Assembly: GCA_022794015.1 (NCBI GenBank) | Contig: JAAWDZ010000038.1 | Span: 1-60,003 of the forward strand | DNA: 60,003 nt | Reading direction: 5' to 3' | From: Eubacterium sp. | Lineage (GTDB): Bacteria; Bacillota; Clostridia; Lachnospirales; Lachnospiraceae | Shown: one piece after another, positions 9,125-53,129 of the stretch | Layout: every line of letters starts with the position of its first letter | How positions within the stretch are numbered: the first letter of the stretch is position 1 | Program-made: the position numbers and the translations under genes | Notes under the pieces: generated by a model | Database searches by the model: none | The model's input: only the letters and a program-made list of their open reading frames with translations | Told to the model about the DNA's origin: nothing

Positions 9125-9271
9125 GTTACTGTTCACGGTGCCTTGCACCCTGCTGCAAGGCATCCGGCCAGTAAAGTAGGGGTTGCGCGCATCCAGCCCC
9201 TCGCCGTCAGGTGACTTTTCAATGGGCTGGATGCGTTACAGTTCGCGGCCGGTTAGGCCGTGAATTGTAAC
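9125..9271 (+). repeat. 147-nt structured intergenic element, copy A (GTTAC...GTAAC family)
   Basis: The outer arms GTTACTGTTCACGG (9125-9138) and CCGTGAATTGTAAC (9258-9271) are complementary with two mismatches. Inside are a small hairpin TGCCTTGCA/TGCAAGGCA (9139-9162), a long hairpin GCATCCAGCCC/GGGCTGGATGC (9189-9234) and a terminal hairpin (9235-9271). The right half of the terminal hairpin can also pair with the left outer arm. The architecture and several loop sequences recur at 40515-40659 (reversed) and 52986-53129. It fills the gap between the tRNA pair and the GH13 gene. No coding frame is convincing. Confidence 0.75.
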
Positions 9272-9284
9272 AAAAACCTAATCT

Positions 9285-11399
9285 CTAAACCCTGCGCATA
9301 ATCACCGCCGACTTCTTTTGCATTGTAATATACACACATCCTCTTATTACCTCATAATCCTCTGGCATAAGCGAATAACCGTTTTCCGTCGTAACAATCA
9401 ACCGGCGCAGTCTTGCCTCCAACGGTATCCCCGCAGCCATAACCGGCAGCTCCTTTCCCCGTTCTCTGTCATCATTATTGACAATGACGATAAACTGCTG
9501 ATCCCTGGTAAATCTGGCATAGCATAAAAACTGATCCTCCCCTTCCAAAAAGAGAAAAGAACCTGTGCGGAATGCCTCGTACCGTTTATGAATCTGAATC
9601 AGTTCCCGATGCAGATCGATCAGTTCCTTATTCTCATGTTCCCATGGATAAGTCCTTCTGTTGTCCGGATCTGTAAAACCACACAGCCCCGCTTCATCGC
9701 CATAATATAAAGACGGCGCTCCGGGCCAGGTCATCTGTATCAATACCGCCTCCCGCAAAACGCTGTAATCAATGCCTTCACTGGCGGCAGCTGCACCCAG
9801 ATATTCCACTCTTCCCGCTTTGTGGTTCGTTCTGGTCAGGAATCTGGAATGGTCATGGTTAGAAAGCTGGTTCATAGAACACTGCAGAGACGGTGTCATA
9901 AAACAAGTCATAAAATGACGCATAGTCCCTTCAAATTCATTTATTTTACCAATGCGTTCCGGATAAAACTCGTCACTGTGCTTTTCCATACCTGTCAGAA
10001 AATATGTAACAGGCTCCATAAACGCCGCATAGTTCATAATCGTATCCCACTGATCTCCCATCAGCCATTCTTTGGGATCTCCGTAATGCTCCGCTAAAAT
10101 TACGGCATCGGGATTTGCCTCTTTTACCACATTCCGAAAATCACGCCAGAACTTATGGTTAAACTCCCTGCTGTGTCCCAGATCCTCCGCCACATCCAAA
10201 CGCCATCCGTCACAGCAGTAAGGTTCCGATACCCATTTTCTGGCAATCCGCATAATATCCTGATACAAAATCTCAGAACTTTCAAAATTCAACTTGGGCA
10301 GCGTATCATGCCCCCACCAGCCTTCGTATTCCCGATTATGCTCCCAGGTTTCGTCATTTTCCCTGAACTTAAAATAACTGCGGTACGGGCTTTCCCTCGT
10401 AATGAATGCGCCCGGTCCAAACCCTTCTTTCCCTTCATAAATTCCTTCCCGATCCATCCAGTAATTAAATGACCCGCAGTGGTTGAACACACCGTCCAGA
10501 ATTATTTTCATACCCCGACTGTGCACTTCCTTTACAAAATCTGCAAAAAAAGCATTGCTTGCCTCCAGATTCTTCTGGCTCGTCACCCGACAGCGATAAC
10601 GCGTCGCTTTTCGGTTGTCCTGATCTCCTTCCGGCAAAAGTTCCCCTTCATCCTCTACAATTTTAGCAAAATGCGGATCAATGTGATCGTAATCCTGAAT
10701 ATCGTATTTGTGGTTGGACGGAGATACAAACAGCGGATTAAAATAAATAACTTCCACGCCGAGCCCGGACAGATAATCCAGTTTCTGACGCACACCCTCC
10801 AGATCTCCGCAGTAAAATTCTCCTACGCTGAAATTCTCCGGATATTTATCCCACTGCTCTTTCGGAACTCTGGCGCTTGGCGTGCGGATATAAAAATATT
10901 CCCGATCCAATATATCATTCGATTCATCTCCATTATAAAAACGATCCACCATAATCTGATATATGACCGCTCCTTTTGCCCAGTCCGGCGTGGAAAAGCC
11001 CGGAACAATTTTAAAGAAATACGCCTCGCGTACCTCCTGTGAAACTCCGTAACGATCATAAAAACACTGTACCTGTCCGGATAAAATTTCAAAATAATAA
11101 GAAACCGGCTCCGTTCCCAAAGGAATACGCACGGCATAGTAATCAAATGTACCGTCATTCTCCACAATCTGCATCTGATAACAATTTCCGTTTGCCCACA
11201 GCCATACGATATCTACGTTATATTTTGCAGTCCGGAAACGAATCGTCACATCTTCATGCTCTTTTGGTTCCGGCGGAATCCGATAATCCTTCGTACCGTC
11301 CGAAAATAATGCTTCTTTCCGTAAAACAGGTCTCATTTGCATCATGTATTGATACACTTTATTTAATTCATGCATAGATTTATATTTCATAGTTGTCAT
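9285..11399 (-). CDS. GH13 family alpha-glycosidase (neopullulanase/cyclomaltodextrinase-like)
   Basis: A 704-residue cytoplasmic glycoside hydrolase; no signal peptide is seen. An N-terminal beta domain of about 135 residues (CBM34-like) precedes a GH13 barrel. The catalytic triad is visible: nucleophile Asp402 (GWRLDVAED), acid/base Glu437 (ILAEHYGD) and Asp516 (NHDHSRF). The first barrel strand reads GAVIYQIMVDRFYNGD. Family knowledge suggests hydrolysis of alpha-1,4/1,6 links in imported maltodextrins. The exact specificity cannot be read from the sequence. Two starts are possible, ATG 11399 or ATG 11390, both near AGGAAAAGAGG. It stands alone, downstream of a terminator. Confidence 0.85.
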   Translation of the reverse strand: MTTMKYKSMHELNKVYQYMMQMRPVLRKEALFSDGTKDYRIPPEPKEHEDVTIRFRTAKYNVDIVWLWANGNCYQMQIVENDGTFDYYAVRIPLGTEPVSYYFEILSGQVQCFYDRYGVSQEVREAYFFKIVPGFSTPDWAKGAVIYQIMVDRFYNGDESNDILDREYFYIRTPSARVPKEQWDKYPENFSVGEFYCGDLEGVRQKLDYLSGLGVEVIYFNPLFVSPSNHKYDIQDYDHIDPHFAKIVEDEGELLPEGDQDNRKATRYRCRVTSQKNLEASNAFFADFVKEVHSRGMKIILDGVFNHCGSFNYWMDREGIYEGKEGFGPGAFITRESPYRSYFKFRENDETWEHNREYEGWWGHDTLPKLNFESSEILYQDIMRIARKWVSEPYCCDGWRLDVAEDLGHSREFNHKFWRDFRNVVKEANPDAVILAEHYGDPKEWLMGDQWDTIMNYAAFMEPVTYFLTGMEKHSDEFYPERIGKINEFEGTMRHFMTCFMTPSLQCSMNQLSNHDHSRFLTRTNHKAGRVEYLGAAAASEGIDYSVLREAVLIQMTWPGAPSLYYGDEAGLCGFTDPDNRRTYPWEHENKELIDLHRELIQIHKRYEAFRTGSFLFLEGEDQFLCYARFTRDQQFIVIVNNDDRERGKELPVMAAGIPLEARLRRLIVTTENGYSLMPEDYEVIRGCVYITMQKKSAVIMRRV

Positions 11400-11427
11400 C
11401 CTCTTTTCCTGTTTAAATCAATGCAAA

Positions 11428-11461
11428 GTAAAAAAGACAGCTTCAATCTGCTGTCTTTTTT
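11428..11461. terminator. bidirectional-looking hairpin upstream of the GH13 gene
   Basis: AAAAAGACAGC (11431-11441) pairs with GCTGTCTTTTT (11450-11460), so both strands end in T runs. It lies between ftsH and the GH13 gene and can end ftsH transcription. It lies only about 30 bases upstream of the GH13 start, so it could also attenuate that gene if the GH13 promoter is upstream. Confidence 0.65.
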
Positions 11462-11556
11462 AGGAGAAGGTATTTTTACTATGGGGTGTAGCAAAAACTA
11501 TATATAATGTATTGGGGGTTTTTACGAGTATTATAATAGCACTGCAAGCAAGATAA

Positions 11557-11601
11557 GTGTGCACAAACTTCACAAAATTTGTGTTTTATTTTTGTGCACA
11601 T
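11557..11601. other. nested palindrome after ftsH
   Basis: GTGTGCACAAA (11557-11567) and TTTGTGCACAT (11591-11601) form an outer stem. CACAAAATTTGTG (11571-11583) is an inner palindrome. There is no T run on the minus strand, so it is not a standard terminator. It begins about 17 bases after the ftsH stop. It could be an mRNA 3' structure or a protein-binding palindrome. Confidence 0.4.
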
Positions 11602-11617
11602 TGCATACATTCTGCTG

Positions 11618-13432
11618 TTAACTACTAAAAAGTGCTTCAAACTCTTCCCTGTTGATCTTCTCTTTTTCTAATAAAAGCCCTGCACATCGATTTAACACAT
11701 CTTCATTTTCATATATAATCTTTTTTGCTTTGGCATAACACTCATCAATAATCCGTTTTACTTCTTCATCAATTCTGGTCGCCACACTTTCTCCATATCC
11801 TCTGGTATGGGCCAAATCCCTGCCAATAAATACTTCATTATCGTCGCTGTCATAATTAATAAGCCCTATATTATCCGACATACCATATTTTGTTACCATA
11901 GCCTTTGCAAGCTGGGTCGCCTGCTTAATGTCCTGTGACGCTCCGGTTGTAATATCGTCAAAAATCATCTCCTCCGCCACACGTCCGCCGAGATCTACCA
12001 CAATCTCCTGCAGCATGCGGCCTTTCGTGTTAAACATCTCGTCATTTTCCGAAAGCGGCATCGTATAGCCCGCCGCTCCGGCTCCGGTCGGTATGATAGA
12101 CACGGAATAAACCGGCCCTACGTCCGGCAGCACATGGAATAAAATAGCGTGCCCCGCTTCGTGAAACGCCGTAATCCGCTTCTCTTTTTCGCTGATAATA
12201 CGGCTCTTCTTCTCTGCACCGATTCCAACCTTGACAAAGGATTTGCGTATATCACTCTGTATAATGTAAGCACGGTCTTCCTTAGCGGCATTGATAGCGG
12301 CTTCATTGAGCAGATTCTCCAGATCCGCTCCGGTAAAACCTGCCGTTGTCTGCGCAATCTGTTTTAAATCCACGTCGTCGCCAAGCGGCTTATTTTTTGC
12401 ATGTACATTTAAAATTTCTTCCCTTCCGCCGATATCCGGACGGCCCACATGAATTTTCCGATCGAATCTTCCCGGACGCATAATCGCGGGATCCAGAATA
12501 TCCACACGGTTTGTAGCGGCCATCACAATAATACCCTCGTTTATGCCAAAACCGTCCATTTCCACCAGCATCTGATTCAGCGTCTGTTCACGCTCATCAT
12601 GGCCGCCGCCCATTCCCGTACCTCTGCGCCTTGCCACAGCGTCAATCTCATCAATAAATACGATACACGGCGCATTCCGCTTTGCATCTTCAAACAAATC
12701 CCGAACGCGCGAAGCTCCGACACCAACGAACATCTCCACAAAATCCGATCCGGAAATGCTGAAAAACGGTACGCCCGCTTCCCCTGCAACCGCCTTTGCA
12801 AGCAGCGTCTTACCTGTCCCAGGAGGGCCGACTAACAGCACCCCTTTCGGAATCCTGGCGCCCATACGGCTGTACCTTCTGGGATATTTCAAAAAATCCA
12901 CCAGTTCTTCCAACTCTTCTTTCTCTTCCCGCAGACCGGCAACACTCTGAAAATTCATCTTATTGTCACTCGTAGTCAGTTTCGCACGGCTTTTTCCAAA
13001 ATTCATCATCTTGTTTCCGCCGTTACCTGCCGCTGCCTGATTTGTCATAATCATAAATAAAATAAACATGGTAGCCAGTACAATTAAAAGTGGAAGAAGA
13101 TTTAAAATCCAGCTCTCCGGCGGCACATCCTTCAGATAATAGCCGGTGAATTCTTTCTCCTTCAATATGCCCTGCACCTCATTGACATCAGAAACATATA
13201 ATTTCCTGGCGGATGCATTTTTCAGATGGACTTCTAAAATACCGGTCGGTATTTCTCTGTTCTGTTCTATTTCTATAAAGATTACTTCGTCTTTGTCCAA
13301 TGCGGTTTCAAGCTCTGTTAATGTATATGCGTCTGCCTCGCTTTCTCTGGCATCCAGCATCAGCCAGACAACAACCACTACAACAATAAGCAACACATAA
13401 AATCCAAAGCCCCTGTAACTATGTTTCTTCAA
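11618..13432 (-). CDS. ftsH: ATP-dependent zinc metalloprotease FtsH
   Basis: A 604-residue membrane-anchored AAA+ protease that degrades misfolded membrane and regulatory proteins. Two transmembrane helices (about 9-26 and 107-130) flank an extracytoplasmic domain. The AAA domain has Walker A GPPGTGKT (about 203-210), Walker [10 protein letters not shown] and the second region of homology MRPGRFDRK. The zinc site HEAGH is near residue 425. The start codon is TTG at 13432-13430, preceded by GAAGGAGG with good spacing; no ATG gives the full first helix. It is the last gene of spoIIE-tilS-hpt-ftsH, 35 bases after hpt. Confidence 0.96.
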
Positions 13433-13467
13433 CTGGAATCCTCCTTCTGGCTTAATTCATAATTCGT

Positions 13468-13992
13468 TTAGTCTAATTCTACTACGCCGATATACGGCAG
13501 ATTCCGGTATTTCTGCGCGTAATCAAGCCCATAACCCACTACGAACTCATCCGGTATGTGAAAGCATGTATAATCTACATCCACCGGAACCACACGCCGT
13601 TCCGGTTTATCCAACAATGTACAAAGCCTTAAGCTCTTCGGTTCCCGGTTTCTCAGATACTCAAGCAGATAGCTTAACGTCCTGCCGGAATCTACGATAT
13701 CCTCTACTACAAGCACATCCTTTCCTTTGATGCTCTCATCCAAATCCTTTACAATCCTGACTACACCGCTGGATTTGGTATCCGCCCCATAACTGGATAC
13801 AGACATAAAATCCATGGAAACCGGAACAGTCAGCCTCTTGGAAAGCTCACAGGTAAAAAATACGCCTCCTTTTAATACACAGAGCATATGCACCTGTTTT
13901 CCTTTATAATCCTCACTGATCTGCTTTGCAATTTCTGCAATTTTCTTGTCTACTTCTTCTTCTGACAATAATACACGGACTGTTTCACTCAT
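13468..13992 (-). CDS. hpt: hypoxanthine phosphoribosyltransferase
   Basis: A 174-residue purine salvage enzyme that converts hypoxanthine or guanine plus PRPP to IMP or GMP. The PRPP-binding motif VLVVEDIVDSGRTL lies at about 94-107, and VLKGGVFF near 43-50 is the other conserved loop. The start at 13992 follows GGAGGAAGAAGC; upstream in-frame codons belong to the tilS overlap. The start overlaps the tilS stop by four bases (ATGA), showing translational coupling. The tilS-hpt-ftsH order is conserved in Firmicutes. Confidence 0.95.
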   Translation of the reverse strand: MSETVRVLLSEEEVDKKIAEIAKQISEDYKGKQVHMLCVLKGGVFFTCELSKRLTVPVSMDFMSVSSYGADTKSSGVVRIVKDLDESIKGKDVLVVEDIVDSGRTLSYLLEYLRNREPKSLRLCTLLDKPERRVVPVDVDYTCFHIPDEFVVGYGLDYAQKYRNLPYIGVVELD

Positions 13993-15404
13993 GCTTCTTC
14001 CTCCATCAATTGTACTTCCAACACTCTTTTCGTATGTTCTGTAATTTTGTAATATGCACTGATCCGATAGCCTGCAGCCCATAAAACATGATGTCCGTCT
14101 GCAAGCAGCAATATCTCATCCCGTCTGGACTTAGGAACCTTCTCATTGATCCAGTAATCTTTCAATTTCTGTCTGTGCCCCTCTGAATCCAGTACAAAAT
14201 AGTCTCCAGGCTCCCTTGTTCTCAAATAAAGCCTGTTTTTTATCTTATCATAATCAAACCATTTCGTATACAGGTTTTTGGGAATTTTTACATCTTTTTT
14301 TACAGGCATAGGAAATACACGATACCGCAAAACACTGCCCAAAGCCTGTTTTTCTCCCCAAATCCCCTCTATTGGAATCCGTATGCTTTCCCCTTTCTCA
14401 TCTTTCGCATACGGAAAAAGCAAAAGCAGGCCGTAGCTGTTTTCCGCCGCAATCCCATACGGCAGGGAAATCCTTCTGCCAGTCTGCCCACACGCAAGCG
14501 AAAGTAAAGACACAGCATGTTCTCTTGTGATATCCTTCCTGCTGCCGCAGGCTTTTTCCATAAGCCCAAGCATCACCTGCTTCTGCAGAAAAGACGGGTA
14601 TTCAAAAAAACCTTCCGTTTGAAAACAGAACGTCCTCTCTCCTTTTTTTTCCATACGCTCTTCTAAAACTTTATCCACTTCCCTGCGTAAAAATGCAGAA
14701 ATTTCAAGTAAATCCTGCGCCAGCAGGTTCATATGCGCCGTACTTGCCTCATTTATGGCCGCAAGCTGCGGCATAATACAATTACGGATCCGATTGCGGC
14801 TGTAGCGGATATCAGAATTGGTCGCATCTGTACAGTACTCCTGTTTTTGCTCTTTCAAAAAATACTCAATTTCCTTTCTCGTCACACAAAGCAGCGGCCG
14901 GATAATTGCTCCCCGGACAGGGCGTATCCCTGCAAGCCCGTCCAGCCCGCTGCCTCTGCACAGATGAAACAGCATGGTTTCTGCATTATCGTCCCCATGG
15001 TGCGCGACAGCCGTCTTTACAGCGCCCCCCTGAGTGTTGCAGATAAGGCCAAAGCGTTTTCTTTCCTCCTCAAACGCTTCATAGCGGGCCGCCCTGCCTG
15101 CTTCTTCCACAGAAATTCCCTGTTCCTTTGCCATTTCCTCCACCGGATATGACTTTGAAACAAACAAAACTCCATAGCTTTCTGCCAGTCGTTTTACAAA
15201 GCACATATCGTCAAGGCTTTCCATTCCACGGATTCCATGCTCAATATGTATGACGGACAGAGAAAATCCCATCGTATGACGCAGTTCCTCCAAAACCAGA
15301 AAAAGACAAACAGAATCTGCCCCGCCGGACACGCCCACACATATATGGTCACCCGCTTTTACCATCTGATATTTTTGCATGTATGCCGCAATTTTCTTTA
15401 ACAT
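13989..15404 (-). CDS. tilS: tRNA(Ile)-lysidine synthase
   Basis: A 471-residue enzyme that ligates lysine to C34 of tRNA-Ile(CAU) using ATP, which lets it read AUA. The N-terminal PP-loop is SGGADS at 26-31. The central and C-terminal substrate-binding domains are present (the C-terminal TilS domain includes RQKLKDYWINEKVP). Length matches the Firmicute family. The start follows GGAGGAAATC. It lies 27 bases after spoIIE and overlaps hpt by four bases. Confidence 0.95.
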   Translation of the reverse strand: MLKKIAAYMQKYQMVKAGDHICVGVSGGADSVCLFLVLEELRHTMGFSLSVIHIEHGIRGMESLDDMCFVKRLAESYGVLFVSKSYPVEEMAKEQGISVEEAGRAARYEAFEEERKRFGLICNTQGGAVKTAVAHHGDDNAETMLFHLCRGSGLDGLAGIRPVRGAIIRPLLCVTRKEIEYFLKEQKQEYCTDATNSDIRYSRNRIRNCIMPQLAAINEASTAHMNLLAQDLLEISAFLRREVDKVLEERMEKKGERTFCFQTEGFFEYPSFLQKQVMLGLMEKACGSRKDITREHAVSLLSLACGQTGRRISLPYGIAAENSYGLLLLFPYAKDEKGESIRIPIEGIWGEKQALGSVLRYRVFPMPVKKDVKIPKNLYTKWFDYDKIKNRLYLRTREPGDYFVLDSEGHRQKLKDYWINEKVPKSRRDEILLLADGHHVLWAAGYRISAYYKITEHTKRVLEVQLMEEEA

Positions 15405-15431
15405 GATTTCCTCCGCAGTATCTATCTATCG

Positions 15432-17273: not shown

Positions 17274-17339
17274 GTTGATACATCCTCCTGCCTTTTTGCT
17301 TTTTACGCCCCAAACAAGCGGGCAAATTTTCTAAAAGGC

Positions 17340-17373
17340 ATTATATGCATACTGCTTTGAAATCTTTGTCAAA
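17340..17373 (-). promoter_or_regulatory. spoIIE promoter with 21-bp spacer and overlapping Spo0A box
   Basis: On the minus strand TTGACA (17372-17367) and TATAAT (17345-17340) are consensus hexamers separated by 21 bases. The Spo0A box consensus TTTGTCAAA overlaps the -35 on the plus strand (17365-17373). In B. subtilis the spoIIE and spoIIG promoters have this same wide spacing and are activated by Spo0A bound at the -35. The match in position, spacing and gene is strong, though the inference rests on consensus matching. Confidence 0.75.
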
Positions 17374-17399
17374 CTGTTGAGGTCCAATCAAAAACTTTT

Positions 17400-17438
17400 C
17401 GCCAAAAATGCCCTCGAATTGTAGATTCGAGGGCATTT
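17400..17438 (-). terminator. intrinsic terminator after divIC
   Basis: AAATGCCCTCGAAT (17406-17419) pairs perfectly with ATTCGAGGGCATTT (17425-17438). On the minus strand it is followed by TTGG. It ends the yabP-yabQ-divIC unit just upstream of the spoIIE promoter. Confidence 0.75.
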
Positions 17439-17459
17439 GACCTTTTAAAGAGCTTCGCC

Positions 17460-17750: not shown

Positions 17751-17780
17751 ATAATCTCTTTTCCTGCCACCTCTGTCTGT

Positions 17781-18508: not shown

Positions 18509-18577
18509 TTTATCCCTCTACCTCCTGCCCTACAACCGCCCTTATCCGGAATGGTTGTCTGATTTTTCTTTCTAAAC

Positions 18578-30472: not shown

Positions 30473-30526
30473 TAGAACTCCATTCCTGCAGCATCTGCCC
30501 CAACAGATCTGCAAATATTTTATTAT

Positions 30527-30680
30527 GGCAGGTCTCCTGGCTTACAGGCTTTTCATTCTCGCCTTCTCAGATTGGATCCAATGGCTTTTTGGAATCAAAA
30601 TATGCCTGATTACAGTAGTAGAGGCTGCTGCGGATTTGCACCACATTCCCTTTTCACTTCCTTTGCGGAAACACCATTGT
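30527..30680 (-). promoter_or_regulatory. cobalamin (AdoCbl) riboswitch
   Basis: On the minus strand the conserved core GGTGCAAATCCGCAGCAGCC follows GGGAATG, and the B12 box GCCAGGAGACCTGCC closes the element at 30541-30527. It lies 54 bases upstream of btuF. No strong terminator follows, so translation control through the btuF start region is likely. Confidence 0.93.
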
Positions 30681-30685
30681 TTACG

Positions 30686-30714
30686 AGTATAGCATCCCAG
30701 ATGAAATTTGTAAA
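30686..30714 (-). promoter_or_regulatory. sigma-A promoter of the btuFCD operon
   Basis: On the minus strand TTTACA (30714-30709) and TATACT (30691-30686) are 17 bases apart, just upstream of the riboswitch. Confidence 0.7.
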
Positions 30715-30842
30715 TATGCGGTCAATTTAAGATGAGGGAAACGGTAACAGTACAGCCTGCAGCTGCGCAGTCAGCATCCGGGAAAGCAGACCCGTCAGGA
30801 ATCCCCCATTGCCAAATGCAAGCTTTAAATAGGACGTATCCC

Positions 30843-31853
30843 TCACCATTCCCTTAAGATACCGAATATCAACAACGCCGACACCGGTCCCAATATAACC
30901 CCGCTGCCCCCATAAAGAGCAATTCCAATATAAATGCTCATCAAAACCGCAAGCGGCGGCACTCCAACCTTTTTTCCCACCAGCTTCGGCTCTAAAAGCT
31001 GCCGGATAAAGCTGCAGACAATATAGATCACCAGAAACCCTGCTGCATTCCGGTAACCGCCAAGCAGCAGCTCCACCAATGCCCACGGCACAAAAACCGT
31101 CCCCGTTCCGATAAACGGCAACGCATCACAAAACCCAATCGCAATCCCAATCCAGACCGCATGTCCAACCCCAAGCAGCAAAAGCCCTGCCACACATACG
31201 CCTGTTACCACGCCCATAATCAAAAGCTGCGCCCGCAGATACGCTCCGAAAGCTCCCTTTAATTCATGCAGCATATGCATGGCATTTTTTCCGATCTGGG
31301 TTTTATTTATGCCCTGCAGAATCCCTTCATAATCCTGCAGAAAAAGAAACGCAGCAATAAACGATACAAATATTTTTGCCAGAAGCCCTATCATATACCA
31401 TCCCGCGTCCTTCGAATAGCTCACGGCGCTCCCGGTAAAGCTCTCTGCCTGCCGGCCTATGGTTTGTTCAATTTCCTCCATGCTGTAACCGGAAATATCC
31501 TCCAGCCGCTTGCAGCAGCTGCCGAACATGCGGTTCGCATTTTCCATAAAACCATCCATATTTTCCAGACAGCTGCTGCCCATCCGATAGCAGAGGTATA
31601 AAACGCCTGCCGCCGCCGCTCCCACGCCTGCCAGAAAAAGAACATATGCCGTGCATCTGGCAAACGATTTCTTCCAGCCCATTCTTTGTTCCAGCCATTT
31701 TGCAAGTGGATACAAAAAACGCGCCAGTACAAAAGCAATTAAAAATGGCAGCACCATTGGGAATAGGAACTTCATTCCGAAATAGACTGCCGCCACTACA
31801 ATAAGTATTTTTGCAATTTTATTTCCATTTTCCCATGTCATTTTCGTTTTCAT
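30843..31853 (-). CDS. AI-2E family transporter (possibly YtvI-like)
   Basis: A 336-residue membrane protein of the AI-2E/PerM family, with about eight hydrophobic helices. A charged soluble stretch lies after the third helix (about 95-145). The family pore motifs FCDALPFIGTGTVFVPWAL and LEPKLVGKKVGVPPL are seen near 225 and 275. The start is taken at 31853; no good ribosome binding site is visible, so ATG 31841 or coupling to rluA (29 bases upstream) is possible. Sporulators carry a related protein, YtvI; the sequence does not settle which branch this is. Confidence 0.8.
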   Translation of the reverse strand: MKTKMTWENGNKIAKILIVVAAVYFGMKFLFPMVLPFLIAFVLARFLYPLAKWLEQRMGWKKSFARCTAYVLFLAGVGAAAAGVLYLCYRMGSSCLENMDGFMENANRMFGSCCKRLEDISGYSMEEIEQTIGRQAESFTGSAVSYSKDAGWYMIGLLAKIFVSFIAAFLFLQDYEGILQGINKTQIGKNAMHMLHELKGAFGAYLRAQLLIMGVVTGVCVAGLLLLGVGHAVWIGIAIGFCDALPFIGTGTVFVPWALVELLLGGYRNAAGFLVIYIVCSFIRQLLEPKLVGKKVGVPPLAVLMSIYIGIALYGGSGVILGPVSALLIFGILREW

Positions 31854-38860: not shown

Positions 38861-40048
38861 TTATAAATACTTCTTCAAATCTTCCACCTTGTCCAAAGCT
38901 TCCCATGGCAGATTTAAATCCTGCCGTCCAAAATGCCCATAAGCCGCTGTTTCTTTATAAATCGGCCTTCTTAAATTCAGCATTTGAATGATTCCTGCCG
39001 GACGTAAATCGAAGTTCTCGCGGACAATTTCTACCAGCTTATCGTCGGCAATTTTCCCTGTTCCAAATGTATCCACCATAACGGAAGTCGGCTGCGCTAC
39101 TCCGATTGCATACGCAAGCTGAATCTCGCATTTTTCTGCAAGACCTGCAGCCACAATATTTTTCGCCACATACCTCGCCGCATAAGCCGCGGAGCGGTCT
39201 ACCTTTGTACAGTCCTTGCCGGAAAATGCGCCGCCGCCGTGGCGTGCAAAGCCGCCGTATGTATCTACGATAATCTTTCGTCCCGTCAATCCCGCGTCGC
39301 CCTGAGGACCGCCGATCACAAAACGTCCGGTCGGATTGATGAAAATTTTGGTATCCGCATCCACCATATCTGCCGGAAGGACCGGATCCAGAACATATTT
39401 TTTCACATCCTTATGTATTTGCTCCTGTGTAATTTTTTCGTCATGCTGGGAAGAAATAACAACCGCCTCCAGACGACTTGGCTTACCATTTTCATCATAT
39501 TCTACAGAAACCTGGGATTTGCCGTCTGGCCGCAGGTAGCTAAGTGTTCCATCCTTGCGCACCTTGGTAAGCTGCTGTGACAGTTTATGTGCCAGCGCAA
39601 TCGGATACGGCATGAATTCTGCCGTTTCATTGACAGCATAACCAAACATCATGCCCTGATCTCCTGCCCCGATTGCCTCTATTTCGGCGTCTGTCATTTT
39701 ATTCTCTTTTGCCTCCAGCGCCTTGTCTACACCCATGGCAATATCCGGAGACTGTTTATCCAAAGCTACCATTACAGCGCAGGTATTTCCGTCAAATCCC
39801 TTTTCGGAACTGTCATAGCCAATTTCATTTACTGTTTTCCTTACAATTGCCTGAATATCCAGATTTGCCTTTGTGCTAATCTCTCCTGTCACCAATACGA
39901 AACCTGTGCAGGCTGCTGTTTCACAGGCTACGCGGCTCATGGGATCCTGTGCCATGCAGGCGTCTAATATTGCGTCGGAAACCGCATCGCAGATTTTGTC
40001 CGGATGCCCTTCTGTTACTGATTCAGATGTAAATAATCTTTTCTCCAT
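38861..40048 (-). CDS. metK: S-adenosylmethionine synthetase
   Basis: A 396-residue enzyme making SAM from methionine and ATP. Conserved segments are GHPDKICD near the start, [12 protein letters not shown] (about 117-128) and [16 protein letters not shown] (about 260-275). The start at 40048 follows GGAG with eight-base spacing. An in-frame ATG 16 codons upstream lacks family sequence. A SAM-I riboswitch and terminator precede it, giving feedback repression by its product. Confidence 0.97.
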
Positions 40049-40169
40049 CACCAATTCTCCTTTTTGCATTGATATACTCCCGAAATCTCTCAACATCAGA
40101 TCTAGAGAGATTCTAAAAGCACATATTGTAATTTAATCTAAATTCAAACACGGCTTTCTTTTTATGGCG

Positions 40170-40225: not shown

Positions 40226-40335
40226 CTCTTATTGTTCGAATACTTCGCTCAGGTTGGCACCTTCCTGCAGGAAAATCCTTAAGGGGTTGCCGTGACTTCA
40301 CAGATCCTATGTATCTCCATCACTCTGAATAAGAG
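40226..40335 (-). promoter_or_regulatory. SAM-I (S-box) riboswitch of metK
   Basis: On the minus strand P1 strands CTCTTATT (40335-40328) and AATAAGAG (40233-40226) enclose the core GAGTGATGGAGAT, GGATCTGTGAAGTCACGGCAACC, and GGTGCCAACCTG. These match the S-box pattern. Upstream TTGACA (40389-40384) and TATAGT (40361-40356) are 22 bases apart, too wide for a standard promoter, so the start site is unsure. Confidence 0.93.
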
Positions 40336-40419
40336 AAAGCTATATGATTGAATTTACTATAGGGTACGTCATTCTTGCACAAATGTCAAGTGGGTATTGC
40401 CATTTTCTATCATTTTCCA

Positions 40420-40450
40420 TAACTGTTCAGCCTTCCGGCTTCACTGTTAC
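40420..40450. repeat. isolated terminal hairpin of the GTTAC...GTAAC element family
   Basis: TAACTGTTCAGCC (40420-40432) and GGCTTCACTGTTA (40437-40449) flank TTCC. Apart from one base it is the reverse complement of the terminal hairpin of the element at 53098-53129. The rest of the element is absent, so this is either a remnant or a stand-alone unit. A full, reversed copy begins 65 bases away at 40515. Confidence 0.7.
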
Positions 40451-40514
40451 CATTTTCTAGCCCCATACAACACGGATTTTTTACCATCTGGTGTGAAATG
40501 TAATACGATTATTG

Positions 40515-40659
40515 GTTACTGTTCACGGCCTGAAAGGCCGCTCACAGTAACGGTTCGGGGCGATATTTAAAGTTTTGCTTCGCAAAAATCGCCCCGAACT
40601 TGTATCATATTCTCACGGAACACGCAGTAAATGCGCGTTCCTGACCCATGAACAGTAAC
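40515..40659 (-). repeat. 145-nt structured intergenic element, copy B (reversed)
   Basis: The outer arms GTTACTGTTCA (40515-40525) and TGAACAGTAAC (40649-40659) pair perfectly. Inside are the terminal hairpin (40515-40551, GGCC/GGCC tip with TGAAA loop), a long hairpin GTTCGGGGCGAT/ATCGCCCCGAAC (40553-40599) and a small hairpin GGAACACGCA/TGCGCGTTCC (40617-40641). Read on the minus strand the order and loop sequences (including GCAAAACTTTAAAT) match copies A and C. It sits in the 600-base gap between metK and the HD-GYP gene. Confidence 0.75.
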
Positions 40660-40941
40660 GATTATTGTACAATAAAAAAAATTTCACAATTACCCATTGC
40701 AGAATTGCCGGGTTCGTTTTATAATTTTAATAATTCCAACATTTTTATGTTAAACTACATAAATGTACTTCTGGAATCTCTTTTTACCTGATTTTGCAGG
40801 ATGATTTATGATCAGATGTGCACAAATTTATGAGGTATACGTGAAGTTGATTCAATTTGTGTTCATATGGCGGTAAATCAGCCACAAAAACAGGCGCCAG
40901 GGAGATTCCCAGAGTACATAAAATCAAAGGGAGTGTTCCAA
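40660..40941 (+). other. AT-rich intergenic region upstream of the HD-GYP gene
   Basis: No gene is seen. It contains A/T runs and TGTGCACAAATTTATGAGG near 40817, with AATTTGTGTTCAT near 40855 forming a loose inverted repeat. This resembles the nested palindrome after ftsH (11557). No confident promoter was found. Confidence 0.4.
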
Positions 40942-47174: not shown

Positions 47175-47191
47175 AGCGTTCTCCTTTACTG

Positions 47192-47244
47192 AAAAATGCT
47201 GCAAAACGGGGACAGGTATCTATCTGTCATCCCCGTATGCAGCA
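47192..47244 (-). terminator. strong hairpin terminator between the PrsA-like gene and the exporter
   Basis: On the minus strand TGCTGCATACGGGG (47244-47231) pairs with CCCCGTTTTGCAGCA, with TGACAG/CTGTC extending the stem inward. TTTTT (47196-47192) follows. The exporter ribosome binding site begins within ten bases, so no room is left for a promoter in between. Confidence 0.8.
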
Positions 47245-47305
47245 TAATATAATTCTCATAACAGATCAAAAACCCTCTGTTACATATTCCCTCTATTCCA
47301 AAATC

Positions 47306-48394
47306 CTATTCCTCAGTTGCCTGTACATTCTCAGTATCTGTTGTTTCTACTGATTCTGTTTCACTCTCTGTTTCCACTTCCGGCGCTTTAAACCGATCCT
47401 CAAATACAACCTTGGCCCATTCCTCTTCATTAATGGTAAAAGCGGCATCCTCAGCTTCTTTCCAGCCGTCTAAAATATCATTATAATGATCTTCCTCTTT
47501 CTGGGAAATGAGCTCCTTCCTCTTATTCTCAGTCGCTTCTGCATCATGTTCACTGTCTAACCGCAGCACATAATAGGTTCCATTTACATCAATCGTTTCA
47601 GAAACCTCACCTTCCTTCAGCTTATCTGCCGCTTCTAACACAGAAACGTCAAAACTGCTGCTCTCGTCCGCCGCCGAACCATAAGACGCTGTACTTGCTG
47701 TAAGCCCTGCATCTGTCACAGCCGTGTCAAAGTCCTCTGCTGCGGCAATGGCATCTGCGGTCGCTTTCAGCGCTGTAAGCTCTTCCTCTGAATGCCCTGC
47801 ATCCTCGCCTTCCTCTTCATGCGTATGATCCGCCGCAACCGTGACATAAGTGAATGTCCTCTGCGCCGCCTCCTCATCTGTTACAGTAGTATCTGCATCC
47901 TGAATCATGCGGTCATGCATCTTCTTCTGAATGGTCTGTAAACGAAGCATTTCTTTTACATTTTCTATATTCTCCGCTCCAACCTGCCTGAGAGCTTCCT
48001 TGGAATTGTCCGCAGCAAAATCCTCTGCTGCCTTTGCAATTGCAGATTCTTCCTCATCACTCAAAGAGATCTCATACTCGTCCATGTGCGCCTTTAGTGT
48101 ATATAAATCCTGCAGGGACTCTGCGACGTTCTCCTTCATATCCTCCGTAAGCGTCCTGCCGTTGCCGTACAGATCACTGTTCCACATATCTTCTCCAAAA
48201 TATGCCATATAGTATGAATCATAAACTGCCTGCTGGTATTTTGCGAAAAAATTCGCCACACCCATTGTTATCGTTGTATCTCCAAGTTTTGCAAACTCCG
48301 CTGTGTCCGAAATCGTACTGCCGCAACCACTCATCATCAAACCTGTCAGAACTGTTCCCGTCAGCAGTATCGCCATTACTCTCTTACTTCTCAT
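47306..48394 (-). CDS. PrsA/SurA-like peptidylprolyl isomerase lipoprotein
   Basis: A 362-residue lipoprotein. The signal reads MRSKRVMAILLTGTVLTGLMMSGC, with lipid-modified Cys24. An N-terminal helical SurA/PrsA chaperone region (about 30-165) leads to a degenerate parvulin-like domain (about 170-285), with GSAADESSSFDVSVLEAADKLKEGEVSE matching the parvulin FDxAAxxLxxGEVS core. A His/Glu/Asp-rich insertion (DHTHEEEGEDAGHSEEE, about 188-204) is unusual. The C-terminus is a Glu/Thr-rich tail. It probably helps fold exported proteins on the outer face of the membrane. AGGAGGAACAT sets the start. Confidence 0.85.
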   Translation of the reverse strand: MRSKRVMAILLTGTVLTGLMMSGCGSTISDTAEFAKLGDTTITMGVANFFAKYQQAVYDSYYMAYFGEDMWNSDLYGNGRTLTEDMKENVAESLQDLYTLKAHMDEYEISLSDEEESAIAKAAEDFAADNSKEALRQVGAENIENVKEMLRLQTIQKKMHDRMIQDADTTVTDEEAAQRTFTYVTVAADHTHEEEGEDAGHSEEELTALKATADAIAAAEDFDTAVTDAGLTASTASYGSAADESSSFDVSVLEAADKLKEGEVSETIDVNGTYYVLRLDSEHDAEATENKRKELISQKEEDHYNDILDGWKEAEDAAFTINEEEWAKVVFEDRFKAPEVETESETESVETTDTENVQATEE

Positions 48395-48593
48395 ATGTTC
48401 CTCCTAAAATATCCGGCATATCCTCATTTTGTTTGGCCGGTCGCTCCCACTATTATAGTGCTTTTTTTCAAGTACCGCAAGATTTTTCACTATTTTTTCA
48501 AAACTTTTCGTGATTGTGTCTGGGGAAGAGGCTGTGGGAGGGATGGAGGAAGGTTCCAAACTGAAATCATACCTTAGAGCCTGGAAAACCGTA

Positions 48594-48694
48594 GTCAGAC
48601 AGAGGGCAGGGTATACTCACGGGGTATTGTGACGGAATTTTAGTGGTTCTTAAGTATCCCCAAACTCCCAGCAATGCCCTGCCCTCTGTCTGAC
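48594..48694. repeat. CAGACAGAGG palindromic element, copy 2
   Basis: GTCAGACAGAGGGCAGGG (48594-48611) and CCCTGCCCTCTGTCTGAC (48677-48694) pair perfectly over 18 bases across a 65-base interior. GTATTTTTT follows on the plus strand, where no gene is present. The arms share CAGACAGAGG with the element at 38765-38826. It occupies the 334-base gap between the PrsA-like gene and mfd. The rest of that gap holds nothing recognisable. Confidence 0.7.
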
Positions 48695-48728
48695 GTATTT
48701 TTTACCACACTCTGCGGCAAAGGATATT

Positions 48729-51700
48729 TCACTCCTTCATCACGATATCTCCGGCATCCTTAAGCACCATCTCTATTACTTCCACCGCACTCTCTTTTTG
48801 TCTGGAGTTGATCTTCAGTCCATATACGAAACAAGGCACCTTTTTATCCGGATAAAATTTCATCCGTCCCTCATACCGCCCCACAAATTCCGGTATCTTA
48901 GCCGGATCGATTCTGGCACGCTCAAACAGGGTAAAGCGCACCTCGTCTCCCTTCTGCGCCACATCAGTAAAATAATACCGATGCGCCTGTGCCTTATATT
49001 CTGCCAGCCGCAGGAGATTTCCCACGGATTTCGGCGGATCTCCAAACCGATCAATCAGTTCTTCTAAAATCTCTTCTTTTTCTTCCAGACTTTCAATCCC
49101 GGCAATCCGCTTATACACGTCCAGTTTCTGTGCCTCATTCGGAATATAAGATGCCGGAATAAAAGCGTCAATATCTACATCAATTGCCGTTTCAAAGCTT
49201 TCTTCAGTTTCTATGCCTTTGGCGCGTTTAACGGCCTCGTTTAACATTTTGCAGTATAAATCATAGCCTACTGCCTGCATATGGCCGTGCTGCTCGGCGC
49301 CAAGCAGGTTGCCGGCGCCACGGATTTCCAAATCACGCATGGCGATTTTAAAGCCGCTGCCCAGCTCGGTGTATTCTTTTATGGCGGCCAGGCGTTTTTC
49401 GGCTACTTCTTTTAGCATTTTATCCCGTCGGTACAGTAAAAAAGCATACGCGGTACGGCTGGATCTGCCGACTCTGCCGCGGAGCTGGTACAGCTGGGAA
49501 AGACCCATGTTATCTGCGTCGTGGATAATAATGGTATTAACATTGGGAATATCCAGACCGGTTTCAATAATCGTCGTGGATACCAGTACGTCAATTTCCC
49601 CGTTAATAAACCGATACATAATATTTTCCAGCTCACGTTCCTTCATCTGACCATGGGCAAATTCCACCGCGGCTTCTGGTACAAGGGCCGCTATCTTTGC
49701 AGTAATATCTGCAATCTGATTGACCCGGTTGAATACATAGTAGACCTGGCCTCCTCTGGCAAGTTCTCTGGCAATTGCCTCCCGTACCATTTCCTCGTTG
49801 TACTCCATAACATAAGTCTGGATCGGAAGACGGTCTAAGGGGGGCTCCTCTAATACACTCATGTCCCGGATGCCGATTAAGCTCATATGAAGCGTACGGG
49901 GAATCGGGGTGGCCGTTAAGGTCAGCACATCTACGTTATGCTTTAGCTTTTTGATTTTCTCCTTGTGCGCCACGCCAAACCGCTGTTCCTCGTCAATAAT
50001 TAAAAGTCCCAGATCCTTAAACATGACGTCCCCGGACAGCATCCGGTGCGTGCCGATGACGATATCCACCATACCCCGTTTTAGTTTTTCAATCGTCTTT
50101 TTCTGCTCAGAACTGCTTTTGAAACGGCAAAGCAAATCCACCACGACCGGGAAATCCTTCATACGCTGTACAAAAGTGTTGTAGTGCTGTTGGGCCAGAA
50201 TTGTCGTCGGCACCAGATAAACTACCTGCTTACCCTCCTGCACTGCTTTAAACGCCGCGCGGATGGCAATTTCAGTCTTGCCATAACCGACATCTCCGCA
50301 GATCAGGCGGTCCATGATTTTTTTACTTTCCATATCCCGTTTGGTCGCTTCAATCGCCGCTTCCTGATCCTCAGTTTCCTCAAACGGAAACATTTCTTCA
50401 AACTCCCGCTGCCAGACGGTATCTGCACCGTATGCAAATCCTTCATTTTGCTGCCGCTTAGCATAAAGCTCAACCAAATCCGCCGCAATTTCTCTGACTG
50501 CACCCTGCACCCGGCTCTTAGTCTTATGCCATTCCTGTCCGCCCAGTTTGTTCAGCTTTGGTTTCTTCGCGTCCGCGCTTGCATACTTTTGAATCTGGTC
50601 AAGCTGCGTTGCCAGAATGTAAAGATTCCCTCCCTTATCATACTCTATTTTAATATAATCTTTTACCGTCTTATCGACTTCAATCTTCTCAATTCCGCGG
50701 TAAATCCCCAACCCATGATTTTCATGCACCACATAATCCCCTGCGCTAAGCTCCGCAAAGCTGGCAATTTTCTCCCCTTCATAAGTCCGTTTACGTTTTT
50801 TCTTCTTTTTGATCTCCGCCCCGAAAATATCACTTTCCGAAATCACCGCAAATGACAGAAGCGGATACTCATAACCTTTGCGCGCCTTACCGTAAAGTAC
50901 CATCACCTCACCGGGCTTTGCCGCATGATTGTAGTCCTCTGTAAAAAACGCATTTAACCCTTCCTGCAGTAAATCCTCTGCCAGCCGCTTTGCGCGGGTC
51001 TTCGAACCAGACAGCAAAATCACCGAATAACCCTTTTTCTTATAAAGTTTTAAATCCTTAATTAAGAGCTCAAAGCTGTTGTTATAAGCGCCAATGCTGC
51101 GCGCTTCAATTGCAAAATGTCCTGTAACCGCAAAATCCTTTACCTTCAGATCTAACGCTCCAAGCGCAACGCAGCTTATTCTCCCCAGCTTTGCTGCCGT
51201 TTCCTCACAGGAATACAGCGCCTGCATCTGCCCTGGCAGAATATAACCTTTTTCCAGACGCTGCTTCATGCTTTCGGAAAACTCCTGCTCTGTCATACGT
51301 CCGCGTTCCGCACACCTGGCTGCCTCATCCAGAAAAACAATCGTATCTTTGTGCTCAAAATAATCCAAAAGCGACACCGTAGTTTCATCAAAATACGTCA
51401 GATACGCGTCTATTCCATTTGTCTCCACACCTTCTGTCAGCTGTTCGCAAATTTCCTCCGCCGCATGCTTTATCCTTGCCGCTTCCTCCGTTTTCATCTC
51501 CTTGCGATAACGTGCATACAGCTTATCCGCATCCTGCTGCAGACGTGCCAGCCCTGCTTCTTTTTCCTCCTGTGTCAAAATCAGCTCTACTGCCGGGTAC
51601 AGCTCAATACTCTCCAAATTTTCAATGGAGCGCTGGCTTTCCACATCAAAACTGCGCAATGAGTCAATTTCATCATCCCACAGCTCTATCCGGTATGGAT

Positions 51701-52259
51701 TCTCCTCTGTCAGCGGAAAAATATCAATAATCCCGCCCCTGATAGCAAACTGCCCTGCCACTTCCACCTGATACGCCGCTTCATACCCTGTCTTTACAAG
51801 TTCTTTCTTCAACTGTGTCAAATCCACAATATCGCCTACATGAAAAACCCTTACTGACTCCAGAAAGCGTCCTGGCCCTGGTATCCGGTTCATCAGCGCA
51901 TCGTACGTAGTAACAATTGTCACCTTCCCGCCCTCTGCAATGGTTCTCAGCGCTAAAATCCGTTCCCTTGTCAGCACATTTCCCCGTAAATCCGACTGAT
52001 AAAACAAAATATCCTTCGCCGGATAGTACACCGCTTCTTTCTCAAAGAACCGGTACTCTTCATAAATTTCCCTGGCTTTCTGCTCATTAAAAGTGACAAT
52101 GATTTTATTCTTAAAATCATTGCCCAGTCCATACATCAAATGCGGTTTTTGTGAATCTATACATCCGGAAACCATCCGAATCCCCGGTTCTTTTTTCAAC
52201 TGCGCCCGCAGCCGTTCCATTTCCTCCAATGCGCGCAGCGGTTCTAAAAATGCCCTCAT
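48729..52259 (-). CDS. mfd: transcription-repair coupling factor
   Basis: A 1176-residue DNA translocase that removes stalled RNA polymerase and recruits UvrA to the lesion. The UvrB-like N-terminal domains (about 1-400) precede the RNA polymerase-interacting domain (from about 500, [20 protein letters not shown]). The SF2 motor has Walker [10 protein letters not shown] (about 658-666) and box [10 protein letters not shown], then the TRCF C-terminal domain. The start at 52259 is one base after the pth stop, with GGGAG overlapping the pth end. pth-mfd is a conserved Firmicute pair. Confidence 0.96.
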
Positions 52260-52260
52260 A

Positions 52261-52836
52261 TTACTCCCGTTTCTTTGTATTAAATTCATTCATAGCCTGA
52301 TCTGTATTTCCATTTACCATATAACCGACGGCCGAAATTGCATCTGCGGCCGCTTTATCCACCATCTCACGCTCTCCCTTCGAAAAGTGCCCCAGCACAT
52401 AATCTGCCAGATCCCATCCGTCAGGCTTTTCTCCTACGCCGATCTTGATTCGTGCAAACGCATCCGTCCCGGTTCGTGCAATAATGCTCTTTACCCCATT
52501 ATGCCCCCCGGCGCTTCCCTTCTTACGAATCCGAATATTCCCTGGTGCAAGACTGATATCGTCAAAAACCACAATCAGATTTTTGGCTGCCGAACACTTA
52601 TAAAATGCCAGAACCTCCGCAATACTGTCTCCGCTTAAGTTCATATAGGTCTGCGGCTTCACCAAAAGCACCTTCACGCCTTCCACGATCCCGCTCCCGC
52701 AGACAGCCCTGTGTTTTCTCACATTCATACTGATATTATATTTTCCGGCCAATGCATCAATGACATCAAATCCGACATTATGCCGCGTATTCTCATACTT
52801 TCTTTCCGGATTCCCAAGTCCTGCAATCACATACAT
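52261..52836 (-). CDS. pth: peptidyl-tRNA hydrolase
   Basis: A 191-residue enzyme that releases peptides from prematurely dropped peptidyl-tRNA. The catalytic region is GLGNPERKYENTRHNVGFDV (about 6-25), with catalytic His20. Later conserved segments are LVKPQTYMNLSGDS and VVFDDISLAPG. The start at 52836 follows GGAGG with eight-base spacing; longer in-frame starts add non-family sequence. It is coupled to mfd. Confidence 0.96.
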   Translation of the reverse strand: MYVIAGLGNPERKYENTRHNVGFDVIDALAGKYNISMNVRKHRAVCGSGIVEGVKVLLVKPQTYMNLSGDSIAEVLAFYKCSAAKNLIVVFDDISLAPGNIRIRKKGSAGGHNGVKSIIARTGTDAFARIKIGVGEKPDGWDLADYVLGHFSKGEREMVDKAAADAISAVGYMVNGNTDQAMNEFNTKKRE

Positions 52837-52985
52837 AATCCCATCCTCCGCCATATCTGTCCTTTTCTTCCACAGCACATGCAAAAATCCCATGGTAACG
52901 CCTCCCGTCTTTTGCAAACTGTCCTATATTCTACCGTAAAACCTCCTATTTGTAAATGGGCGAAGATACCCTCCGGTATCCCTTT

Positions 52986-53129
52986 GTAACAGTTCAGCCC
53001 AGGACTTTGCACCTGCTGTAAAGTCCGTGAGTATGCGTAAAGACTGGAGTGGAATCCGCCCCTTTGCCGTATGGCAAACTTTAAATGGGCGGATTCCGTA
53101 ACAGTGAAGCCGGAAGGCTGAACTGTTAC
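52986..53129 (+). repeat. 144-nt structured intergenic element, copy C
   Basis: The outer arms GTAACAGTTCAGCC (52986-52999) and GGCTGAACTGTTAC (53116-53129) pair perfectly over 14 bases. Inside are a small hairpin GGACTTT/AAAGTCC (53002-53026), a long hairpin GGAATCCGCCC/GGGCGGATTCC (53051-53097) and a terminal hairpin (53098-53129). It shares loop sequence with copies A (9125) and B (40515, reversed). It lies between jetC and pth, where a jetD gene would be expected in a complete Wadjet operon. Confidence 0.78.

Follow-up and report, generated by a model that had tools for sequence, protein, structure and literature searches.

What kind of element occupies the three intergenic sites, each of about 145 nt, at which the same succession of hairpins recurs in the 60,003-nt stretch of Eubacterium sp. 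DNA analysed here (the window)? The first-pass annotation, which left the choice between a structured RNA family and a mobile element with folded ends, gave coordinates, strands, lengths, order of parts and loop sequences that we find as described. Element A (9125..9271, + strand, 147 bp) consists of the left end (IRL), a small hairpin H1 (9139..9162, loop CCCTGC), a long hairpin H2 (9187..9234, inner hairpin loop GTCA and a 3' bulge that ends CTTTTCAAT) and a terminal hairpin (9235..9271) made of an inner repeat (IRi) and the right end (IRR), all on the + strand. Element B (40515..40659, − strand, 145 bp) has, on the same strand, H1 at 40617..40641 (loop TTTAC), H2 at 40553..40599 (inner loop cGAAg, 3' bulge CTTTAAAT) and the IRi-IRR terminal hairpin at 40515..40551. 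In element C (52986..53129, + strand, 144 bp) the corresponding + strand parts are H1 at 53002..53026 (loop CCTGC), H2 at 53051..53097 (inner loop cGTATg, 3' bulge CTTTAAAT) and the terminal hairpin at 53098..53129, the last 22 nt of which are identical in sequence to the right terminus of IS66 element L170. The three belong to separate subfamilies, designated A, B and C accordingly, and on both strands their folding beats that of dinucleotide shuffles, with z values from −7.2 to −10.0.

Perfect 8-bp direct repeats flank all three elements: AAAAACCT for A (9117..9124 and 9272..9279), CAATAATC, read on the element's strand, for B (40660..40667 on its 5' side and 40507..40514 on its 3' side) and ATCCCTTT for C (52978..52985 and 53130..53137). 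The element coordinates are the boundaries of transposition. To follow the family further we used a covariance model, R1, built from C, one more C-type copy and eight copies of other genomes, with A and B excluded. In the window R1 matched A with 60.9 bits (E 4.4e-13) and B with 77.3 bits (E 5.7e-17). It also matched a decayed copy at 40419..40504 (− strand; 27.9 bits, E 3.1e-5; blast identity to C of 96.8% over 31 nt), the terminal hairpin of which is still recognisable at 40419-40450, and, weakly, a possible heavily decayed copy at 30744..30862 (+ strand; 17.6 bits, E 0.0088), which adjoins a cobalamin riboswitch and retains GTAACAGTACAGCC and CTTTAAAT. These two copies and the 8-bp repeats had gone unremarked in the first-pass annotation.

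Beyond the window, a covariance-model search, of the kind proposed at the first pass, revealed many further copies. R1 gave 83 matches among 150 scored candidates in the element's own genome, some of which overlap or are opposite strands of one copy, and, among 150 candidates each, 85 matches in G222, 57 in G250 and 22 in Sporofaciens musculi; elements of a second class, type II, also score about 40-49 bits with R1, so that genome-wide counts mix both classes. Among 299 genomes of the family (Lachnospiraceae-type), 62 contain matches and 50 reach an E value of 1e-6, with at most 10 candidates scored per genome and the matches unchecked singly. By blast, the own genome holds 21 matches to B and 40 to C, B and C themselves counted, while the A subfamily comprises, besides A, one full copy (on C15, 97%) and three fragments. 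B and C each belong to a subfamily whose copies in this genome are mostly 92-99% identical, and there the earlier statement that the pattern is "not simple copying" does not hold.

The copies are non-coding and mostly intergenic (an ORF call overlaps 7 of 77), have a length of 130-149 bp except for deletion forms, and end in GTWACWGTTCA. An exact 8-bp duplication is found in 50 of the 77 copies, and 7 or 8 positions match in 61; of 1519 control pairings, two reach 7 and none reaches 8. A mobile element, one of the two options of the first-pass annotation, is established by the high copy number in each genome together with the 8-bp target duplications and the IS66-type ends; short and non-coding, it is a miniature inverted-repeat transposable element (MITE). 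Transposition as single strands, of the IS200/IS605 or RAYT/REP type, would suit the hairpin ends and the small size, but it is contradicted by the duplications in 50 of the 77 copies and we regard it as highly improbable; the 8-bp duplications and inverted terminal repeats, both common to IS66, point instead to a DDE-type, double-strand mechanism. The terminal hairpin also occurs alone, as units of 28-37 bp with 8-bp duplications of their own, such as a 37-bp relative with an exact duplication on contig C79 (L004). Such hairpins might arise if IRi is usable as an end, or by in-place deletion between the direct repeats IRL and IRi.

The same ends are found on IS66 elements that contain a single gene, measure about 1.8 kb and likewise have 8-bp duplications. 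Among 32 named IS66 loci, 14 (1812-1835 bp) carry the repeat at each end together with an exact 8-bp duplication (six in S. musculi, five in Lachnospiraceae bacterium 3-2 and one in each of three other assemblies), six possess both ends but lack a matching duplication (in one case the locus lies at the edge of a contig), and 12 are cut or lack an end. Three TnpC proteins of such loci were scanned, one of them incomplete, and all match PF03050. S. musculi carries IS66 and MITE together: all seven MITE loci read there have 8/8 duplications, and the 14-nt left end of the MITE is that of the resident IS66 in six, with one change in the remaining one. These similarities make TnpC of an IS66 element with matching ends the likely mobiliser: it would act on both IRL and IRR in trans and so move a transposable element of 130-150 bp that is not itself autonomous. 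No IS66 transposase was found in the own assembly, which has a completeness of 86% and breaks off at these repeats, nor in the 99%-complete G222 with its 85 R1 matches. IS66 is only mildly commoner where the MITE is present, in 20 of 40 MITE-bearing genomes (39 with at least two R1 matches, plus G273) versus 13 of 40 R1-negative genomes (the first 40 by handle). When A, B and C were compared with the IS66 loci, only their ends matched, apart from a separate H1-like fragment that lies elsewhere within one locus (G367:C31; L130 and overlapping loci). Since the core is unmatched, the MITE is not a plain internal deletion of IS66.

This core comprises H1, the apical loop of which is conserved, then a linker beginning CGTRAGAA, then H2, which contains a small inner hairpin and, on its 3' side, a CTTTAAAT-like bulge. 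The compensating stems noted at the first pass are borne out on 46 and 77 aligned copies. In the 46-row alignment (A5), which was fitted to the model and includes seven type II or decayed partial rows, 96.5% of 1562 cells are paired (69.2% when shuffled), and the covariation score is 0.576, against 0.140 for shuffled and at most 0.060 for slid alignments. In the covariation test, likewise suggested by that annotation, 33 of 37 pairs change on both sides, versus 23.2 after shuffling. A plain MAFFT alignment of 13 copies gave 18 of the 37 predicted pairs. The claim of conserved loops stands in part: the H1 loop, the start of the linker and the bulge stay fixed across very different stems, but unpaired core columns as a class are on average no better conserved than paired ones (0.94 and 0.92 bits, 77 copies). 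In 33 non-redundant copies, with the seven type II or decayed rows omitted, the non-Watson-Crick cells are 31 G-T versus 5 A-C, with 32 other mismatches; in the core alone there are 12 G-T, the only wobble among 811 core cells, versus 3 A-C.

We take the core to be maintained by selection that acts on the fold of its top strand. Arm-to-arm correction is known from quasi-palindromes, and template switching or conversion between hairpin arms could also match the stems in the absence of selection, a process with which the low wobble content is compatible. It leaves unexplained both the three motifs that stay fixed over differing stems and the asymmetry of G-T over A-C, and we consider it rather improbable. 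Two other candidates were set aside. One was base-pairing between CTTGC, the H1 loop, and the GTAAG that comes after it: inspection by eye showed no joint change across copies, and the linker is probably too short for a pseudoknot. The other, intrinsic termination of transcription, we do not favour, as the terminal hairpins are, judged by eye, not followed by a T-run.

The fold that is selected may be one of RNA or of DNA. A family of host sRNAs or UTR elements, whose copies would fold in mRNAs and affect neighbouring transcripts, with mobility secondary, could account for the preference of G-T over A-C on the top strand and for the orientation in tandem gene contexts (sense 34 versus 20, of 77 copies; contexts were taken from a longest-ORF script, not a gene caller). 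The MITE-like bcr repeats of Bacillus cereus are often found in transcripts (PMC3446304). Orientation relative to replication could be assigned to 100 copies of three genomes, namely those listed matches that lie on contigs for which there was a skew window (16 of 22 in S. musculi, 23 of 57 in G250 and 61 of 85 in G222); 76 of these are oriented with the leading strand, which is also the main direction of genes. This reading sits less well with the neighbours of the window copies, which are of no particular type (in the scan, an alpha-amylase, metK, an HD-domain gene, pth and an SbcC-like gene), and with nine congeneric loci of the C site, eight of which contain the sequence on the pth side and none of which matches the element over more than 13 nt. 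Nor is there an Rfam relative: Rfam 15 has no family over the elements, either at gathering thresholds in the window or at E up to 5 for eight loci. We judge such a host RNA family unlikely.

Several features also fit a folded single-stranded DNA. Selection of the core as folded top-strand DNA, for example in transposition or at the replication fork, is consistent with the same 76 of 100 orientations, with the scarcity of wobble pairs and with the loops, parsed in 79 copies forming 32 clusters (again with the seven type II or decayed rows omitted). Among 32 non-redundant copies, 24 have a GNA triloop as the inner loop of H2, one has GTAT, two have AAA, one has AGA and four have another or an unparsed loop; no GNRA or UNCG loop appears in the parsed lists. 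GNA and GNNA loops give extraordinarily stable DNA mini-hairpins (PMC4686876). The ends of the H1 loop, parsed in 31 of the 32, are C..G in 21 and T..A in 10, and their pairing would leave mostly a 2-nt loop. CUUG loops in RNA can, however, also form such a closing pair; in the redundant set one copy has T..G and a dozen are unparsed, and by eye type II elements have no GNA loops. Furthermore, the sense-gene and leading-strand biases could not be told apart: among 40 copies in G222 (13 of 14 "opposite" and 27 of 47 "same" copies), divergent sites divide 3 versus 3, tandem leading-strand sites comprise 20 "same" and 9 "opposite", and one tandem lagging-strand site is "same". On balance, selection as single-stranded DNA is a possibility that we hold tentatively, and for the folded molecule as such we see read-through RNA and single-stranded DNA as nearly evenly matched.

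Is it the spreading element that this selection acts on, or each copy by itself? Variation within subfamilies, counted with the deletion copy L060 omitted, gives a mixed answer. In 17 C copies, stems changed at 10 of 918 bases and loops plus linker at 40 of 730 (singletons 6 versus 13, p 0.039). This protection of stems counts against purely element-level selection and would suit a regulatory RNA. In nine B copies no such protection is seen, with 13 of 558 versus 6 of 279 (singletons 11 versus 2, p 0.24), which speaks against a regulatory RNA. We favour selection on the spreading element; on this view it would mainly be the element that profits from the fold, in transposing or in being tolerated by its host, and not the host genes next to individual copies. 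The whole explanation, that A, B and C are MITEs moved in trans by TnpC, with a core selected as a fold mainly serving the element, we hold to be very probable. A bolder version, in which these are IS66 satellites across many genera of Lachnospiraceae type, whose top strand is selected for a fold of single-stranded DNA that has GNA mini-loops, a paired 2-nt loop from which a C is extruded and a bulge of 8 nt, and that is recognised in replication-linked transposition, and in which the terminal hairpin of 28-37 bp may be among the smallest mobile units, is speculative and on present evidence doubtful.

One of the closest known systems is the ISBst12 group of the IS66 family, in which we presume the autonomous partner to lie: its member ISDge4 has the ends GTGACTACTCAGCA/GTAACTGCTCAGCA, an 8-bp repeat and a single transposase gene (PMC12898284). 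The MITE shares the GTAACTGCTCAGCA-like ends and the 8-bp repeat, but has no gene, and its structured core is unmatched in the compared IS66 loci. Correia/NEMIS, ERIC, RU and other bacterial MITEs are likewise below 200 bp, with terminal inverted repeats and target duplications, and their transcripts fold stably; they mostly have TA termini and one end-to-end stem (PMC2229807), in contrast to the 8-bp duplications, IS66 ends, inner third repeat and multi-hairpin core covarying across many genera of the present family. CIR of Caulobacter has two hairpin arms with a linker and a conserved loop motif in common with it, and is set apart by its GANTC motif and alpha-proteobacterial hosts (PMC2229807). 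The bcr repeats are similar in being intergenic, bcr1-bcr3 being MITE-like and bcr10 and bcr18 being reported to have a conserved secondary structure (PMC3446304), and differ in their hosts. REP palindromes (PMC3733652) resemble the lone 28-37-bp terminal hairpins in size; unlike REPs, the latter have 8-bp duplications and IS66-type ends. Neither phages nor plasmids gave a match to C, nor did viral contigs searched with two exact patterns. Among the open-access titles and beginnings of abstracts that literature searches listed, with subscription papers outside this scope, none concerned IS66-linked MITEs of Lachnospiraceae.

Three odd hairpins thus turn out to belong to a large mobile-repeat family, present in many Lachnospiraceae-type gut bacteria, for which a likely mobiliser can be named. 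Their copies break assemblies, 22 contig ends of the own genome falling inside B- or C-type copies, so that a model of the copies is practically useful. MITEs are commonly viewed as stripped-down transposons with meaningless interiors. The present MITE has a fold of unusually strong conservation: its interior displays very clear compensatory evolution over many genera, yet is unmatched in the likely partner transposon. The function of a selfish element's fold thereby becomes a directly testable question.

Three intergenic elements of ~145 nt, A (9125-9271, forward strand), B (40515-40659, reverse strand) and C (52986-53129, forward strand), were confirmed in the window sequence with the positions, lengths and parts that the first-pass annotation had given them. 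Their anatomy, from left to right, comprises a left repeat (IRL), a small hairpin (H1) of ~10 bp, a linker, a long hairpin (H2) of ~11 bp with a small hairpin inside it and a bulge on its 3′ side, and a terminal hairpin in which an inner repeat (IRi) pairs with the right repeat (IRR). Both strands of A, B and C fold more stably than shuffled sequences (z −7.2 to −10.0), and no Rfam family matches any of the three. The covariance model R1, trained on 10 sequences (C, a second C-type copy from its own genome and eight from other genomes) with A and B excluded, recovers A (E 4.4e-13) and B (E 5.7e-17) in the window. Hairpins of the H1 type with the conserved loop also occur at loci L070, L072, L078, L081 and L130, where the surroundings are degraded or different; some resemble decayed elements, and some may be separate. 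B lies just upstream of a SAM riboswitch (40226-40335, reverse strand) that precedes metK (38861-40096). The window also holds a cobalamin riboswitch (30510-30693, reverse strand) and encodes, at 3302-8641 (reverse strand), a protein of 1779 aa that combines M60 peptidase, fibronectin III, dockerin I and F5/8C domains, an architecture known from mucin-degrading proteases.

The alternative offered in the annotation, a mobile element, is supported by 8-bp target duplications and by multi-copy occurrence. Perfect 8-bp direct repeats flank each of A, B and C, and among 77 copies from many genomes the flanks are equal at 8/8 positions in 50 and at 7 or more in 61, whereas of 1519 mismatched flank pairings, used as a control, two reach 7 matches and none 8. 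The elements are almost certainly mobile. A nested insertion in the own genome (loci L011/L028, at G000:C4) places a B copy within the end of a C copy, producing a unit of 297 bp that has a duplication of its own; another duplication-flanked unit, of 274 bp (L327), is as long as two elements of 133 bp and a further 8 bp together and, judged by this length, is probably a double insertion. At nine congeneric loci of the C site, each with a single flank (the pth side in eight, the other side in one), no element match exceeds 13 nt.

The own genome (2.78 Mb, 81 contigs) contains one further full copy of A and three fragments, while blast matches, query included, number 21 for B and 40 for C; R1 gives 83 matches, some overlapping, among 150 scored candidates. 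Such a high-copy repeat should interrupt assembly, and B- or C-type copies indeed contain 22 contig termini, 14 at contig starts and 8 at contig ends. Across the family, where no more than 10 candidates per genome were scored, R1 matches 62 of 299 genomes at E ≤0.001, own included, and 50 of 299 at E 1e-6, counts that mix two classes because R1 also catches the type II elements described below. A search with the C sequence found matches in 32 of 397 genomes, own included; phages and plasmids gave no element match, nor did viral contigs searched with two exact patterns. None of the 10 candidates scored in a 98%-complete congener (G143) matches R1, against 83 of 150 in the own genome, a strong copy-number difference inside one genus.

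The element ends, GTAACAGTTCAGCC/GTTACTGTTCA, led to IS66, since three IS66 loci in two relatives terminate in exactly this repeat. A scan of named genomes with the TnpC transposase from those loci yielded 32 loci, of which 14, of 1812-1835 bp, carry the repeat at either end and are flanked by an exact 8-bp duplication (six in Sporofaciens musculi, five in Lachnospiraceae bacterium 3-2, and one each at L166, L170 and the Blautia MAG locus L176); six carry both ends but no matching duplication, and 12 are cut or lack one end. Three TnpC sequences of such elements were scanned (one incomplete) and match PF03050 (E 2e-20 to 6e-19). The right end in L170 is GTTAGTTCAGCCGGAAGGCTGAACTGTTAC, its last 22 nt identical to the end of C, and in S. 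musculi a 14-nt end common to the short non-coding mobile element (MITE) and the IS is exact in 6 of 7 loci. ISDge4, a published single-gene IS66 of the ISBst12 group, has ends closely similar to those of the MITE and likewise an 8-bp repeat (PMC12898284). Counted against the link, IS66 occurs in 20 of the 40 MITE-bearing genomes and in 13 of the 40 R1-negative ones; the own assembly has no PF03050 match. The link to IS66, which is strong, is drawn from the ends, the length of the duplication and the joint presence of both elements in one named genome, and the family very probably uses an IS66 transposase, which would act on the MITE in trans. At least one perfect DnaA box (TTATNCACA) lies no more than 200 bp from the left end in 9/9 IS66 elements (L163, L168-L171, L176, L178, L179, L186), not all independent, with a chance expectation, by arithmetic, of ~0.06 per element; six of the nine have an inverted pair ~50-65 bp apart.

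Across the 2.37 Mb of sequence fetched, in which some loci overlap, units with exact 8-bp duplications cluster at 121-149, 156-164 and 1812-1835 bp, and besides the 274- and 297-bp units there are two, of 1984 bp (L149) and 2358 bp (L138), that surround other IS66-type genes. The 156-164-bp class and some 140-146-bp units share the ends and have a different core (type II). This second IS66-ended MITE class, of ~140-164 bp and with another folded core, is seen at L074, L076, L080, L086, L268, L272, L277, L281 and L285 (L074, L080 and L268 exemplify the 140-146-bp units); its core motifs are CCGCGAG... and, in several, GCGCCA-stem-TGTGTGC. Exact 8-bp duplications also flank lone terminal hairpins, two facing inverted repeats, of 28 bp (L209 2571-2598), 32 bp (L077 1501-1532) and 37 bp (L004 1504-1540), as well as a 55-bp deletion form (L010 2518-2572). 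These are either mobile mini-units or in-place deletions; for the lone hairpins, either IRi is usable as an end or the deletion occurred between the direct repeats IRL and IRi.

The compensating stems that had been claimed are borne out in 46 copies, in an alignment fitted to the model and including 7 type II or decayed rows: 96.5% of 1562 cells are paired, both-side changes occur in 33 of 37 pairs (23.2 when shuffled). Covariation scores 0.576, and shuffling lowers this to 0.140 and sliding to ≤0.060. When 13 copies are aligned plainly with MAFFT, 18 of the 37 predicted pairs show double changes. The claim of conserved loops holds for the H1 loop, the linker start CGTRAGAA and a CTTTAAAT-like bulge, but unpaired positions as a class are no more conserved than paired ones (0.94 vs 0.92 bits).

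The core (H1, linker and H2) may fold as RNA or as single-stranded DNA. An excess of G-T over A-C (31 vs 5 in 33 non-redundant copies; 12 vs 3 in the core alone) favours folding of the top strand, for RNA and DNA alike. RNA is favoured by the tandem gene contexts, sense in 34 and antisense in 20 of 77 copies (divergent 14, convergent 2). Assignable copies are oriented with the leading strand in 13 of 16 cases in S. musculi (p 0.021), 16 of 23 in genome G250 (p 0.093) and 47 of 61 in G222 (p 2.7e-5); genes run with the leading strand too, and 40 G222 contexts did not split the two effects. DNA is favoured by wobble pairs in only 12 of 811 core cells and by the H1 loop, whose outer bases pair C-G (21) or T-A (10) in the 31 copies, of 32, that a script parsed with a pattern that also allowed T..G and C..A; the redundant set has one T..G and a dozen unparsed copies. 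Comparable loops are the CNNG class in DNA and, in RNA, the CUUG loop, which can form such a pair too. Also on the side of DNA, GNA triloops occur in 24 of 32 non-redundant copies, with no GNRA or UNCG loop among those parsed; GNA and GNNA loops form extra-stable DNA mini-hairpins (PMC4686876).

That stems vary less than loops proved true of one subfamily: in 17 C copies they do (10/918 vs 40/730 loop and linker bases; singletons 6 vs 13, p 0.039), part of the difference being variants shared between sublineages, whereas in 9 B copies they do not (13/558 vs 6/279; singletons 11 vs 2, p 0.24). This mixed result lends slight weight to a host RNA as the selected function. Selection at the level of the element is nevertheless likelier, because the sites have no other visible common feature and widely different genomes have retained the core. 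The elements are a real, large family of folded MITEs.
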